Assembly: GCF_030068615.1 (NCBI RefSeq)
Contig: NZ_JASJOC010000004.1
Location: 124,001 to 188,000, forward strand
Length of the DNA: 64,000 bases
Source: Halostagnicola sp. A-GB9-2
GTDB lineage: Archaea; Halobacteriota; Halobacteria; Halobacteriales; Natrialbaceae
Direction of reading: 5' to 3'
Below, piece by piece: positions 30,502-61,007 of the stretch; the first letter of the stretch is position 1, and each line of letters opens with the position of its first letter. Position numbers and translations under genes: made by a program. The notes under the pieces are model-generated. The model saw nothing but the letters and a program-made list of their open reading frames with translations, made no database searches and was not told the origin of the DNA.

Positions 30502-32142
30502 TCAGCTGAACTTCTGGACGGTCACGTCGAGCGTATCGAGATCGACGATCGGCGCGTATCCGGCGTCGGGATCAATGTTGACGCTCTTTTGAAAATCCGT
30601 CTGTGACTGCCAGCAACCCGAATTGATCGCGAGGACGTTGTGATACTTGCCGAAGCCGAGTTTGTGAACGTGACCGGTGTGGAAAATATCCGGGACGTCT
30701 TCGATGATCAGATAATCCTCCTTTTCGGGGGCGAGTCTCGTATGGCCGCCGAACTGCGGCGCGACGTGGCGCTTTTTGAGGAGGTGATACATCGCTTTGT
30801 GCGGCTCGTCGTAGTTCGCCTTCTCCTCGGGAAGTTCGGCGATGACTTCGTCGAGGCTGACACCGTGGTACATCAGGACTGAAACGCCCTCGAGCGTGAC
30901 CGTCGAGGGATTGCTCACGATCCTGGGATCGTGTGCCGACATGATATTCCGGAGGTTCTCGTCGAAACCGGGTTGCGGTTCCGCGAGCCGAACCGCGTCG
31001 TGGTTCCCCGGAATCATGACGATATCGAGGTCGCCCGGAACCTGTTTGAGGTACTCGTTGAACACTTCGTACTGCTCGTAGATATCGACGACATCGAGTT
31101 CCTCGTCCTGATCGGGATAGACGCCGACGCCCTCGACCATGTCTCCGGCGATTAGGAGGTACTCGACGTGTTGGGCCTCTTCCGTGTGAAGCCAGTCGGC
31201 AAATCGATTCCACGCATCGTGCATGAACTCCTGGCTCCCCACGTGAACGTCGCTGATGAGCGCCGCCTGAACGTGGCGATCCGCGGTAGATGGTTCGTAC
31301 GTGCGCGGAACGTCCGGAAACGACATCGAATCGACGAACGCGATCCCCGAATCGTCCGCCAGCGTCCCCTCCATCGCCAACACCTCGTCACAGAGGAGTT
31401 CCTCGACGAGATCGGCGTACTCCCTGTCTTTCATCACCAGCCACGGAAACGTCCCGGTCGCGTCCTCGAGTTCGACCAACCAGTGGCCGCTCGCGGTCGA
31501 ACGAATATCGTTGACGAGACCGACCATCGCCGCCTCGCTTCCGCCGGGCATACTCTGAATCGCGGAGGCGGGCCGGTGATTGAACCGACCCCGGAGTTTC
31601 GATCCCAGTCGCTCGAGGCGATCCCGAAAAACGGCGACGAAGTCCTTATACTCGCCCGTACCGGTACTCTCTCCGGTCATGTCGTTTGCGATCTCGAGCG
31701 ATCGTTCGGAAACGTCGCCCGACCGTTCTATCCGGTCGGGAGACCCCTCCGTTTCAACTGGAGACCTCCCGCCACGAGGCGAGGAGTCGGGATTCGAATT
31801 TCCAGTTGAAGCTGAGGGGTGTTGCCGGTCGGGCTGATCCGTGTCGACGGTATCGGACGTAGCGAATTCCGATGCGGAATCGGACGACGCGGTTCCTGGT
31901 GATGAGTTATTCGAGGGGGGGTCCGACGTCGAACCGGCCGAAGAGGATTGCGAGTCCTCGAGGACCGATCGAACGTGATCCGAACGGACGACCAGCGTCC
32001 CCTCAGGTAACTCGTCGACGACGCGCTCGAGCGTTGGCTGTGGTCGTTCTGCGGCCGCAATGAGCGTCACAGCTTCGCGTTCTGCGTTGTACCCGCGGGT
32101 GGTCAACTCGCTGACGATCCGAGCGGGGCCCTCGAGTGGCAC
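30502..32142 (-). CDS. polB: DNA polymerase D (PolII) small subunit DP1, exonuclease subunit
   Basis: 546 residues. The C-terminal two thirds is a calcineurin-like phosphoesterase: ISDVHVGSQEF, IAGDMVEGVGVYPDQ, MIPGNHDAVRL, YHGVSLDEV and HTGHVHKLGFGKY, i.e. the 3'-5' exonuclease site of DP1, preceded by an OB domain (about 195-290). Residues about 63-150 are a Ser/Asp/Pro-rich disordered linker holding GGRSPVETEGSPD, which is encoded by an ORB-like DNA sequence. DP1 works with DP2 as the archaeal replicative polymerase. Confidence 0.94.
   Translation of the reverse strand: MPLEGPARIVSELTTRGYNAEREAVTLIAAAERPQPTLERVVDELPEGTLVVRSDHVRSVLEDSQSSSAGSTSDPPSNNSSPGTASSDSASEFATSDTVDTDQPDRQHPSASTGNSNPDSSPRGGRSPVETEGSPDRIERSGDVSERSLEIANDMTGESTGTGEYKDFVAVFRDRLERLGSKLRGRFNHRPASAIQSMPGGSEAAMVGLVNDIRSTASGHWLVELEDATGTFPWLVMKDREYADLVEELLCDEVLAMEGTLADDSGIAFVDSMSFPDVPRTYEPSTADRHVQAALISDVHVGSQEFMHDAWNRFADWLHTEEAQHVEYLLIAGDMVEGVGVYPDQDEELDVVDIYEQYEVFNEYLKQVPGDLDIVMIPGNHDAVRLAEPQPGFDENLRNIMSAHDPRIVSNPSTVTLEGVSVLMYHGVSLDEVIAELPEEKANYDEPHKAMYHLLKKRHVAPQFGGHTRLAPEKEDYLIIEDVPDIFHTGHVHKLGFGKYHNVLAINSGCWQSQTDFQKSVNIDPDAGYAPIVDLDTLDVTVQKFS
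31741..31770 (-). promoter_or_regulatory. ORB-like sequence inside the DP1 coding region
   Basis: On the minus strand it reads CTCCAGTTGAAACGGAGGGG followed by TCT, close to the archaeal origin recognition box core (TTCCAGTGGAAACGAAGGGGT). It encodes the SPVETEG segment of the disordered linker. Binding by Cdc6 is untested. Confidence 0.45.
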
Positions 32143-33562: not shown

Positions 33563-35554
33563 TTAGTTCTCGAATCTGGCCTGTACAAACGGTTGAATGT
33601 CGTCAATGTCGCTTAGCCTTGAGTCCGAGAGCAAGACGGCCTCCGTCTCTTCGAGTGGAACCGAGAGACTGATCTCTTTCGTCCGGCCGTATCGCCCCTT
33701 TGAGACGACGACGGCGTTGACGATTCCGAGCATATCGAGCTCGCTGATGAGATCGGTGACGCGCCGCTGGGTGAGAACGTCGGCGTCGATCTCCTCACAG
33801 AGACGCTTGTAAATGTTGAACACTTCCCCCGTATTGATGCTTTGGACGCCGTTTTTTTCGAGGGAGATAATCGAGAAGAGGACGAGTTTGCTCTGGGTCG
33901 GGAGTGTTCGGACGACTTCGACGACACGATCGAGTTCGATCTTGTCCTGTGCTTGCCGGACGTGTTCCTCAACGATGGTTTCGGACTGGGAGCGCTCGGC
34001 GAGCTCGCCAGCAGTCCGAAGGAGATCGAGCGCGCGCCGTGCGTCCCCGTGTTCCTGCGCGGCGAAGGCCGCACAGAGCGGGATCACGTCACCCGACAGC
34101 GCACCGCCCTTGAACGCGACCTCCGATCGGTGCTGAAGGATGTCGCGTAACTGATTCGCGTCGTAGGGAGGAAACACGATCTCCTCTTCGCCAAGGCTCG
34201 ACTTCACGCGCGGGTCCAGAAAGTCGGTGAACTTCAGGTCGTTCGAAATCCCGATGATCGAGACGCGCGAGTTCTCGAGTTCGGAATTCATTCGCGAAAG
34301 ATTATAGAGCGTATCGTCGCCGCTTTTCTCGACGAGTTTGTCAATTTCGTCGAGCATGATGACGACGACCCGCTCGGAGTAATCGACCGCGTCGAAGAAG
34401 ACGCTGTACACGCGATCTGTCGGCCACCCTGTCATCGGAACCTCCTCGAAGGACTCTTTGTCCTCCTCGAGCTCCGCTATTCGATCCTCGATTGCCTTGA
34501 TTGAATCGAACGGGGTCGACTCGAGCGGGTGTGAAGAAGGTTCGACTGCGGACGACGTCGTATCGTCGCCGTCCGATGACCCCTTCGTTTCGACTGGAGA
34601 ACCACCCGAAGTGAGATCGATATCTGAGTCAGCGGTGTCCGAGTTTGGAGCGCCAGGCGTCTCAGAATGTGAGTCTGTCGTCGAAGGATTGGAACCAGTC
34701 GCGTCTGAGTGCGAGCCAGAAGAATCCGAACGGGAGCCAGAAGAATCCGGACGGGTGTCTTGTGCGTGTGGGCTCGTCTCGTCCCCTGAAGAGCCAACGG
34801 AATCCGAATCGGAGCTTTCTACGGGGGTAATACTAGTCTGGTCGACAGCGGTGTCGGTCTCAGGATTCTTCGAAGAACGATTTCCTGACGAGTCACCGTT
34901 CGCCGATGACCCCGACTTGGTCGTCGGCTTTTCCTCGTCGTTCGACCGGCCCTCCGTAAGTTGTTTCCAGTTCGAGGCTGTCGCGGAATCTTGCTCGCGA
35001 TCGAGACTCGAGGTTCGCTCGTTCGTCGCGTCGAACTCCTCGACCGAATCAACGAGTGATCGAAGTTCCTCGAGTCGGGTGTCGATTCGACGTTCGTTCT
35101 CTTCGATAAACTTGTTCGCGAGCTGTGCAAGTACTCGATACTGCGTGTCGGTTACTTCGCAGTTAATGTACTCAACATCGCACGGAACGCTGTATTTCGT
35201 CGATGTACTCTCGAGTTCCTTACTAACGAACTTGGCACTCGCAGTTTTCCCGGTACCGGTCTTCCCGTAGATGAGAATGTTCGAGGGCGTTTCACCACGA
35301 AGTGCGGCGACGAGAATCGTCGCCATTTTGTTGATCTGGTCGCTTCGATGGGGAAGCTCGTGGGGGGTGTACGACGGTCGAAGAACCTCCTTGTTTTCGA
35401 AGATCGGTTCACCGCTCAACAGGTCGTCGAACAGCCCTTGATTCGGCTCTTCGTCGCCGAGATCGGAGCCTTTCAGTTCCGTGGAGAACCCGTCTGGGCC
35501 TCCCAGTTCGACGTCCCGATCCGAATCCGTCATATCCAATTCATCGTCAGACAT
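33563..35554 (-). CDS. cdc6: Orc1/Cdc6 replication initiator with a large disordered insert
   Basis: 663 residues from the ATG at 35554 (MSDDELDMTDSDRD). AAA+ core: NILIYGKTGTGKTASAKF (Walker A, about residue 90), VVIMLDEIDKLVEKSG (Walker B, about 380), GISNDLKFTDFLDPRVKSSL (sensor 1/initiator-specific part), and a C-terminal winged helix (LVLFSIISLEKNGV to LDMLGIVNAVV). Between Walker A and B about 180 residues are inserted, rich in Ser, Asp, Thr, with GSRSDSSGSHSDATGSNPS repeats; typical archaeal Cdc6 is about 400 residues. It sits beside oriC and should bind its ORBs. Confidence 0.95.
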   Translation of the reverse strand: MSDDELDMTDSDRDVELGGPDGFSTELKGSDLGDEEPNQGLFDDLLSGEPIFENKEVLRPSYTPHELPHRSDQINKMATILVAALRGETPSNILIYGKTGTGKTASAKFVSKELESTSTKYSVPCDVEYINCEVTDTQYRVLAQLANKFIEENERRIDTRLEELRSLVDSVEEFDATNERTSSLDREQDSATASNWKQLTEGRSNDEEKPTTKSGSSANGDSSGNRSSKNPETDTAVDQTSITPVESSDSDSVGSSGDETSPHAQDTRPDSSGSRSDSSGSHSDATGSNPSTTDSHSETPGAPNSDTADSDIDLTSGGSPVETKGSSDGDDTTSSAVEPSSHPLESTPFDSIKAIEDRIAELEEDKESFEEVPMTGWPTDRVYSVFFDAVDYSERVVVIMLDEIDKLVEKSGDDTLYNLSRMNSELENSRVSIIGISNDLKFTDFLDPRVKSSLGEEEIVFPPYDANQLRDILQHRSEVAFKGGALSGDVIPLCAAFAAQEHGDARRALDLLRTAGELAERSQSETIVEEHVRQAQDKIELDRVVEVVRTLPTQSKLVLFSIISLEKNGVQSINTGEVFNIYKRLCEEIDADVLTQRRVTDLISELDMLGIVNAVVVSKGRYGRTKEISLSVPLEETEAVLLSDSRLSDIDDIQPFVQARFEN
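34578..34607 (-). promoter_or_regulatory. ORB-like sequence inside the cdc6 coding region
   Basis: Minus strand reads CTCCAGTCGAAACGAAGGGG followed by TC, near-identical to the archaeal ORB core. It encodes GGSPVETKGSSD within the disordered insert of Cdc6 itself, parallel to the site in the DP1 gene. Confidence 0.45.
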
Positions 35555-35566
35555 TCGTCGTTCGTA

Positions 35567-35592
35567 CACCCCATCATTTCGAGTGGAAAGTA
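35567..35592 (-). promoter_or_regulatory. Imperfect ORB in the cdc6 leader
   Basis: The minus strand reads CTTTCCACTCGAAA-TGAT-GGGGTG; compared with the 27-bp ORBs only the four bases between the dyad and the G-run differ. It is 13 bp before the cdc6 ATG, so Cdc6 bound here could repress its own gene as well as act at the origin. Confidence 0.6.
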
Positions 35593-36054: not shown

Positions 36055-36081
36055 CCCCCACCCCTTTGTTTCGAGTGGAGA
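36055..36081 (-). promoter_or_regulatory. Origin recognition box, left copy
   Basis: On the minus strand it begins TCTCCACTCGAAACAAAGGG and ends in a GTGGGGG run. All 27 bases equal the right copy on the opposite strand. The G-run points toward cdc6. Confidence 0.88.
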
Positions 36082-36369: not shown

Positions 36370-36396
36370 TCTCCACTCGAAACAAAGGGGTGGGGG
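36370..36396 (+). promoter_or_regulatory. Origin recognition box, right copy
   Basis: Plus strand, identical over 27 bases to the left copy, 288 bp away and inverted. The two flank the AT-rich, CTAG-rich segment 36110-36250, the arrangement of a bidirectional archaeal origin. Confidence 0.88.
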
Positions 36397-39203: not shown

Positions 39204-39346
39204 GAATGCCTTTGGTCGCGGTTCCAGTCGAAACGGTGGGGGTTCGTTCGACTGATTTTCCTCTCATTTCCGTTCGATAGGATCTATATCCACAGTCTCC
39301 TCCACTGGGGAACATTTCAACTCGAGAGTTCGCGTGTTCGTCTGAG

Positions 39347-45242: not shown

Positions 45243-45270
45243 TCCGAACCCCCTAATTTCCACTCGAGAC
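45243..45270 (-). promoter_or_regulatory. ORB-like sequence in the intergenic gap
   Basis: The minus strand reads CTCGAGTGGAAATTAGGGGG followed by TTCGGA, similar to the miniORB core and to the two elements at 60326-60382. Not near any replication gene. Confidence 0.35.
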
Positions 45271-59135: not shown

Positions 59136-59705
59136 ATGGCGCGTCGAACGATCGAGGACGAGCGAGACGCCGAGATCGAAGCGTCCGATAGCGCCGCCGA
59201 CGCGCCTCGAGCGTCGCCGATGGGAATCGTCGACGAGTCGGTCAAACGCCGGCTCGAGGAGGCCTATCGCAACGACATGGAAGACGAGCTAATCGTCGTC
59301 GACGTCTCCTCGCCCGAGGGCGGTTCCTCGATCGCCGTCGAGATGGAGACGCCCCACGGCGACACCGACTTCACAAAGTATTTCGACGGCCCGAAACACG
59401 GCTCGCTCGAGGAGTGCGAGGAATTCCTCCGGTTTCTCGAGGTGGCTGGCGTTTCGCCGCTCGAACTCGAGGAGCTGATCGGCTCGCGGATTCCGGCGTC
59501 GTTCGACCCCGAATCGGGGTGGATCGTCGCGAGCGAGTACGCGCCCGAACGGCACGAGGAGACCGACGCTTCGCAGGACGTGGGTGTCTCCGCTCGAGGA
59601 CGGTTTGACGGCTGGATGAAGCGAAACATGGAGTGGCTCGTTCTTTTGATTCTCGTCGGCGGCGAACTCCTTATCGTTGCGATTCTCATCGTTCTTTTCG
59701 CCTGA
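59136..59705 (+). CDS. Conserved haloarchaeal protein with C-terminal membrane anchor
   Basis: 189 residues. A soluble acidic part (DELIVVDVSSPEGGSSIAVE, CEEFLRFLEVAGVSPLELEE, LIGSRIPASFDPESGWIVAS) is followed by one hydrophobic helix at the end (WLVLLILVGGELLIVAILIV). It is predicted to be tail-anchored in the membrane. Function unknown. Confidence 0.7.
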   Translation: MARRTIEDERDAEIEASDSAADAPRASPMGIVDESVKRRLEEAYRNDMEDELIVVDVSSPEGGSSIAVEMETPHGDTDFTKYFDGPKHGSLEECEEFLRFLEVAGVSPLELEELIGSRIPASFDPESGWIVASEYAPERHEETDASQDVGVSARGRFDGWMKRNMEWLVLLILVGGELLIVAILIVLFA

Positions 59706-59927
59706 TTCGTCTGGTTCCCATTCGTTTCACTCGGCCTCGAGTTTGGACGTGAGTCGAGACATTGCTTCCCAAACGACTCGCGTCGGATTTTTCGAGGAGA
59801 ACGCGTAGGACTCGTACGTGTAGGCCGTTTCGGAGTCACTCCGCTCCTGGAACTGTCCCCACCCTTCGACGTGTTCTTGTGGATGGTGGTGCCAACCGAA
59901 GCCACCAGTGCCGTCGCTATAGTCAAC

Positions 59928-59949
59928 AACCCCGACCTCAAGGATCGGG
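59928..59949. other. Hairpin-forming inverted repeat in the decayed locus
   Basis: CCCCGAcctcaaggaTCGGGG-like arms (plus strand) form a 6-bp stem with a nine-base loop. Similar hairpins occur at the ends of IS200/IS605-type elements in haloarchaea, so this may be an insertion-sequence end or scar; low certainty. Confidence 0.3.
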
Positions 59950-60325
59950 GTATCTGCCTCGACCGCCGATGAAAGGAGAGCTCCGGCCGGTCGGAGTCGG
60001 TCTCGCCGGCGAACCAGCGGACGGTGAGGTGGCCGAATCCGCGCCGAGTTCGACGCGGTTTGTCGCAATGTCTGCCACGATTTCCGTGTACTCTCCCGAC
60101 GGAAACCCGCGTACCGTAGCGACGGCCGGGTGTCGATCTCGTTCGCGATCACTCCTGCCGTGACGGCCGTCCGCTCATCGACGGGATGGACGTCGTCCCA
60201 TGCCAGATCGGAACGGGCGGCGTCGACGTCGCCGTTCGGGTGGTTTCCCTCACCGATGAGGACCTCCGCGAGTCGGCGGCGGCTCCGGTCGAAGTCCGCC
60301 TCTCGGTTCGGGGAATTTCCCCTGT

Positions 60326-60382
60326 CGGACCCCCTTTGTTTCCCCTCGAGCCCGCACCGAACCCCCTTCGTTTCCACTCGAG
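60326..60382 (-). repeat. Two ORB-like repeats in tandem
   Basis: Minus-strand elements CTCGAGGGGAAACAAAGGGG (60326-60350) and CTCGAGTGGAAACGAAGGGG (60358-60382) are 32 bp apart in the same orientation and both continue into GGGT. The second has the miniORB core GTGGAAACGAAGGGG. They lie within the decayed locus. Confidence 0.45.
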
Positions 60383-60454
60383 AACTCCGCTCGAGTCCGC
60401 CATTCGTGGTCCGCTCATCGATTTCGTCGTTCGCTCGTCGATCTCGGCTCCTCT

Positions 60455-60856
60455 TCACTCTCCGGCTGTGTCGGTTCTCGCTTTGCCCGCAAACAACGCG
60501 ACGGCGACGTAACAGACGCCGAGAAATCGCGTTACGGGAACCACCCACGGCTTCAACTCGAGTTCGTCGGGATTCTCGTAGGCCATTCCGAGCGCGAGCG
60601 TGACGAACCGTCGCGGAAAGAGAAACGCCGGCACGCCGAGGATTCCGAGAGTCCGACTGACCGCGGGTGCCTTTGCCCTCCCCGTGAGGACGAGCCAGCA
60701 AAAGAACAGTCCCTCGAGGCGAGCCATCGGAATGGTCCACGGCTGCAGCTGACCCTCGCCGGGGTTGTCGAACGCCACCCGTTCCGCCGAGGCGACGATT
60801 CGGTCTGGGAACGCTATCTCGAGGAGGCCAACCGCCACGAGCAGAAGTCGTTTCAT
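60455..60856 (-). CDS. Small membrane protein, function unknown
   Basis: 133 residues from the ATG at 60856 (MKRLLLVAVGLLEIAFPDRI). Hydrophobic segments at about 3-17, 47-58, 70-90 and 105-125; two internally similar halves each contain (A/Y)ENPxExxLKPWxxPxxRxxG (NPGEGQLQPWTIPMARLEG and NPDELELKPWVVPVTRFLG). The internal duplication is clear. Divergent from the IPP isomerase gene. Confidence 0.7.
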   Translation of the reverse strand: MKRLLLVAVGLLEIAFPDRIVASAERVAFDNPGEGQLQPWTIPMARLEGLFFCWLVLTGRAKAPAVSRTLGILGVPAFLFPRRFVTLALGMAYENPDELELKPWVVPVTRFLGVCYVAVALFAGKARTDTAGE

Positions 60857-61007
60857 AGACTGATGTTTGCTAGTAACCAACAAAAATATTCCCGGTAACA
60901 GAGCGTTCTTGGCCTATTACCGTGGATTCTCCCGCCCCACGGAACCGCCGGCCCGAATAGACACCTTTTCAGTTCTCGTCGGCTACTGGCGTAGTAGAGA
61001 CGAACCG

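Follow-up and report, generated by a model that had tools for sequence, protein, structure and literature searches.

The datA locus of bacteria has been proposed to act as a reservoir for the initiator DnaA. Such DnaA-box clusters are initiator sites located away from the origin (PMC3936714), and in Haloarcula hispanica a region rich in ORBs, located downstream of cdc6E and devoid of origin activity, restrains oriC2, probably by titration (PMC3936714). In the same species oriC1 activity requires the G-strings, and ORBs lie downstream of many predicted ori-cdc6 regions (both PMC3936714). In the literature surveyed, ORB titration has been proposed for clusters that adjoin an orc/cdc6 gene, oriC2D being an example. 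The tandem pair of ORB-like elements analyzed here lies in a window of 64 kb (the whole stretch of 64,000 nucleotides) from Halostagnicola sp. A-GB9-2, the source genome (G000). Like oriC2D, for which titration of the cognate initiator was proposed (PMC3936714), it consists of initiator-type boxes outside the minimal origin. Unlike oriC2D, a single cluster next to the cdc6 gene of the origin that it serves, oriC2, the set described here comprises oriC1-type singles and pairs over tens of kb, some of them in coding sequence. It differs from datA in that the initiator there is DnaA, and titration at the pair is a proposal of the present work.

The features of the window are collected in Table 1. 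On the minus strand, core 1 of the pair reads GGAAACAAAGGGGG (window 60330-60343) and core 2 reads GGAAACGAAGGGGG (60362-60375), and both sit inside copies of a 21-bp direct repeat, CTCGAGKGGAAACRAAGGGGG. The start-to-start distance of the cores is 32 bp in direct orientation, which confirms the original prediction of two same-orientation GGAAAC(A/G)AAGGGGG cores with this spacing. The 13-mer GGAAACRAAGGGG occurs exactly twice without mismatch in the 4.68-Mb genome, at these two cores, and the 14-mer core with up to 2 mismatches gave 5 matches in the window versus 1.17 expected. The predicted ORB-like character also held up, as the boxes match the ORBs of the genome's own oriC1, differing from the oriC1-derived 21-mer CTCCASTSGAAACRRRGGGGG at 2 and 1 positions; 200 shuffled patterns at up to 3 mismatches over the whole window gave a mean of 0.05 matches and a maximum of 2. 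A chance origin of the pair was rejected on the genome-wide uniqueness of the 13-mer and on the shuffled and reversed-pattern controls. With the haloarchaeal oriC1 ORB the pair shares core, polarity and G-string, a GAAAC core followed by a string of G being present in both boxes, whereas the left half-site is CTCGAG and not the CTCCAG/CTCCAC of oriC1 (the TCCA dyad half), the extended G tail of the oriC1 ORBs is absent, the boxes form a direct repeat and an unwinding element is lacking. The core GGAAACGAAGGGG of the 60362 box is identical to a box in front of orc1 in another genus member (G002), and the GGAAAC form of the pair is therefore an ORB form in this genus.

Table 1. Features of the 64-kb window (window positions; mismatches are to the oriC1-type 21-mer)
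Feature	Position	Strand	Remarks
ORB in DP1 (PolD small subunit) coding sequence	31743..31763	minus	encodes SPVETEG; 2 mismatches
orc1/cdc6 gene of oriC1, 668 aa	33563..35569	minus	Pfam Cdc6_C, Cdc6_lid, AAA
ORB in orc1 coding sequence	34579..34599	minus	encodes SPVETKG; 1 mismatch
oriC1 ORB	36060..36080	minus	CTCCACTCGAAACAAAGGGGT then GGGGG
oriC1 ORB	36371..36391	plus	inverted partner of the 36060 ORB
ORB-like site	39222..39242	plus	2 mismatches
Frameshifted gene remnant, outside the pair	59727..60147	minus	homologue of an intact G003 gene
ORB-like element	60330..60350	minus	CTCGAGGGGAAACAAAGGGGG; 2 mismatches; aligned with three genus members
ORB-like element	60362..60382	minus	CTCGAGTGGAAACGAAGGGGG; 1 mismatch
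Small membrane-type protein gene, one side of the pair	60455..60883	minus	no Pfam match

The pair is found about 24 kb from oriC1, where the gap adjoining orc1 holds the inverted ORBs 36060 (minus) and 36371 (plus), CTCCACTCGAAACAAAGGGGTGGGG. Searching the source genome with the 21-mer at up to 3 mismatches gave 13 matches, 10 of them on the contig that carries orc1 (C33). Judged by coordinates, no such match lies near any of the five other orc paralogues; among the contigs of these five Cdc6_C genes a single one (C35) has a match, more than 200 kb from the gene. Weaker sequences were also seen. A CTCGAG-type ORB with 4 mismatches occurs at 45248-45268, about 11 kb from orc1, and G003 and G001 each have a comparable one some 8 kb from orc1. 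Another sequence with 4 mismatches (35568-35588) overlaps the start of the orc1 ORF, where many relatives have a better match at a similar place; an ORB-like sequence at this position could serve autoregulation. Past the end of the window, a single ORB with 1 mismatch follows the pair at about 9.3 kb (L118, 5721-5741); G001, G003 and G004 retain this box too, about 10 kb beyond the pair, so that every pair-bearing genome has it at 9-10 kb.

Among five genus members, four (G000, G001, G003 and G004) keep the pair at the same spot and G002 has no pair. In G001, G003 and G004 it lies between genes and is flanked, to the same side as in the window, by the homologue of the 60455-60883 gene, from which it is separated by one more small gene that was not found in the window. 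On the other side the genes differ: G003 has a DUF7342 gene, with the pair about 280 bp upstream of it, G004 has a gene of 194 aa that matches nothing in Pfam, and G001 has a gene like the latter; in G004 and G001 the gap holding the pair lies between convergent genes. Box-to-box spacing is 32 bp in the source genome, 31 bp in G003, 55 bp in G004 and about 53 bp in G001, where one base is missing in one copy. Aligned across the four genomes, both boxes remain conspicuous between flanks that have diverged, and when window 60147-60492 was compared with G003, the pair was the only aligning block (77% over 70 bp). Of 100 genomes searched with a tandem-pair pattern, 3 had matches (G000, G003, G004); these three belong to this genus and have the pair at the shared position, and the reversed control gave 0 matches in the same genomes. 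In the window the pair is spanned by a 337-aa ORF for which no Pfam match was obtained at E≤0.01, and since the pair lies between genes in three relatives as well, its explanation as coding sequence, with conservation inside an intact gene, was rejected. An Rfam search over 59700-60900 gave no match at E≤1 and RNA folding of the pair showed nothing notable (z-scores -0.5 and -0.8), so that a structured RNA was likewise discarded as an explanation.

According to the original prediction, the pair was the relic of an integrated replicon or a dormant origin within a decayed insertion. The neighboring gene is indeed frameshifted: its similarity to the G003 homologue is read in three frames and stops at about window 60147. 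The pair, however, lies outside it by about 180 bp. Inside the broken gene, a 52-bp hairpin-bearing repeat (59922-59973) has a 94% identical copy elsewhere in the source genome and copies in many relatives; around one copy inspected by eye, no transposase-like ORF of at least 200 aa that would mark it as an insertion-sequence end was found within 1.5 kb. The ORB cores are real, and a frameshifted gene together with a repeat found in many genomes lies nearby, as a relic or dormant origin might have it. Against this, the pair is kept at an intergenic spot in four of five genus members with different genes on its left-hand side, including genomes with an intact neighbor gene (G003) and genomes that lack this gene on that side (G001, G004). 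The AT content at the pair is 0.30-0.41 versus up to 0.67 around oriC1, giving no AT-rich unwinding element, the boxes are direct with no inverted arrangement, and no orc1/cdc6 gene adjoins them, the nearest orc gene being orc1 itself, about 25 kb away. No match to the pair at E≤0.1 was obtained among 72,556 plasmid records, and 9 matches of the exact pair pattern in a viral contig collection were judged, by rough reckoning, to be near chance. The lack of an unwinding element, of inversion, of an adjacent orc gene and of plasmid matches, together with the conserved non-coding context, strongly contradicts a relic or dormant origin, which we consider very improbable. As close relatives keep the pair in non-coding DNA, comparison of their sequences suggests that it probably represents live binding sites for the initiator and not the wreck of an old plasmid.

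Boxes of this type are scattered around orc1 well beyond the pair. In the five genus members the 21-mer at up to 3 mismatches gave 62 matches, crowded around orc1; the reversed pattern gave 4. Sites not within 5 kb of orc1 were scored in G000 to G003, with distance bins chosen after the data had been seen; at 5-60 kb lie 4 of 9 such sites in the source genome, 5 of 9 in G001, 4 of 7 in G003 and 0 of 5 in G002, and the excess in the first three corresponds to binomial P values of 3.5e-5, 1.6e-6 and 1.7e-5, respectively. Two of the four sites of the source genome are the pair; counting the pair once leaves 3 of 8 (P 7e-4). When 100 relatives were searched at up to 2 mismatches, 97 had sites and the control gave 3 matches. 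Among the matches listed, which comprise 150 sites in 36 haloarchaeal genomes, 81 lie within 5 kb of orc1. Of the remaining 69, 30 lie at 5-50 kb, where uniform placement would put about 1.9 (assuming a 3.3-Mb genome and linear contigs, with bins set after the data had been seen), 15 at 50-200 kb, 6 further away on the orc1 contig and 18 on other contigs; a site at 5-50 kb is present in 21 of these 36 genomes. Two other genera (G020 and G021) have tandem pairs, spaced by 35 and 70 bp, at a distance of about 8 kb from orc1, in the gap where a methyltransferase-domain gene converges with a DUF1684 gene. The CTCGAG variant recurs near orc1 in other Natrialbaceae, and the matches listed include 29 exact CTCGAG-type sites, of which 24 share a contig with orc1; 19 of these are no more than 60 kb away from it, and 11 are at 5-60 kb.

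Boxes were also found inside the coding sequences of orc1 and of DP1 (Table 1), the latter identified by a Pfam match of ORF 30502-32142 to DNA_pol_E_B (E 1.4e-15). A search of 80 named orc1 loci, 1.6 Mb in total, with the 21-mer at up to 3 mismatches gave 446 matches, and ten shuffled patterns gave 0-2. When the 446 are split by distance bins instead of by annotation, oriC1 or the start of orc1 accounts for 207, the DP1 region for 126 and orc1 for 29; the other 84 lie beyond these and are spread over 50 of the 80 loci; with families assigned by name and partly from general knowledge, the sites beyond oriC1, orc1 and DP1 carry TCGA in 31 of 42 cases in Natrialbaceae versus 1 of 42 elsewhere. 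The DP1 region has a match in 70 of 80 loci; an antisense and a sense box occur together in 44, exactly 57 bp apart in 38 of them. The peptide PxETxG is present in 59 of 69 DP1 genes found, and its codons, counted over related and thus non-independent sequences, are CCA for proline in 58/59 (background 0.12), GAA for glutamate in 59/59 (0.33) and GGG for glycine in 57/59 (0.27). Where the antisense-box peptide was matched (36 of 69), ACT (background 0.09) and GGA (0.13) were used in 36/36 each, and in orc1, with the peptide in 26 of 80 genes, CCA and GAA were each used in 28/28. Synonymous choice so uniform across the order points to a constraint on the in-gene ORBs of orc1 and DP1 at the level of DNA. 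In our literature searches, which drew on PMC3528665, PMC3936714, PMC4010727 and PMC7776575, no earlier report of far-off or in-gene oriC1 ORBs came to light.

The explanation that we favor, held with about even confidence, is that the pair represents two oriC1-type ORBs outside the origin and a node in a set of scattered putative Orc1 titration sites, located mainly in the 50 kb or so around oriC1. It builds on the sequence of the pair and its match to the oriC1 ORBs, its intergenic conservation, the clustering of sites around orc1 and their repeated placement between convergent genes; the pair has the make-up of a titration locus, with initiator-type boxes outside an origin and no unwinding element. 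By analogy with the restraint of oriC2 in H. hispanica, distal oriC1-type ORBs would form a reservoir: Orc1 made beside oriC1 would also bind the spare distal boxes, and these, copied soon after oriC1 fires, would therefore double early and draw Orc1 off the new origins, so that re-initiation would be damped. With so small a number of distal sites in each genome, titration of Orc1 may not be effective. As the left half-site is CTCGAG and not CTCCAG/CTCCAC, affinity may be lower or the binder may be another protein. Observations that speak against a reservoir are that G002 has neither the pair nor a site at 5-60 kb, that one G001 copy has lost a base, that the pair lacks the extended G tail, and that, among the matches listed, 18 of 150 sites are on other contigs and 21 are on the orc1 contig but more than 50 kb away.

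Other roles for the scattered boxes have to be weighed against the same data. Their clustering within tens of kb of oriC1 would suit spare loading sites that widen oriC1 to an initiation zone, or parS-like anchors for chromosome folding or segregation near the origin. Origin-proximal parS arrays of bacteria cluster near the origin in a similar way. The pair, however, has direct instead of inverted boxes and no AT-rich unwinding element, and we regard such a role as unlikely. Orc1 might instead act locally on transcription, as a roadblock, insulator or regulator. Pairs lie between convergent genes in G004, G001, G020 and G021, where a roadblock could stop read-through, the position upstream of the DUF7342 gene in G003 leaves room for a promoter role there, and an archaeal non-initiator Orc1-2 has been described as a DNA-damage-responsive regulator (PMC9738581). 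A convergent gap, on the other hand, has no promoter to regulate, the neighbors vary from genus to genus and, to one side of the pair, also within this genus, and no notable RNA fold was seen at the pair; an action on transcription is unlikely to account for the sites. Recognition by another DNA-binding protein, or local chance duplication, would fit a short motif at which Orc1 binding is a prediction, as well as the preference of distal Natrialbaceae sites for TCGA over the TCCA of oriC1. This appears improbable in view of the near-identity to oriC1 ORBs, the identity of one core to the orc1-side box of G002 and the crowding of matches on the orc1 contig.

The interest of the finding lies more in the set than in the pair, and ORB-like motifs by themselves do not identify an origin, whether a dormant or an active one. 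Extending the reservoir explanation, we tentatively suggest that Haloarchaea might hold a scattered Orc1 reservoir, made up of singles and tandem pairs of ORBs between genes and of the in-gene ORBs of orc1 and DP1, which would be maintained at the DNA level across the order and would jointly meter initiation. How archaea prevent over-initiation is poorly understood. Extra-origin oriC1 ORBs that are conserved and countable, some of them overlapping replication genes, make titration testable by deletion, for which Haloferax, Haloarcula or Natrinema would be possible hosts.
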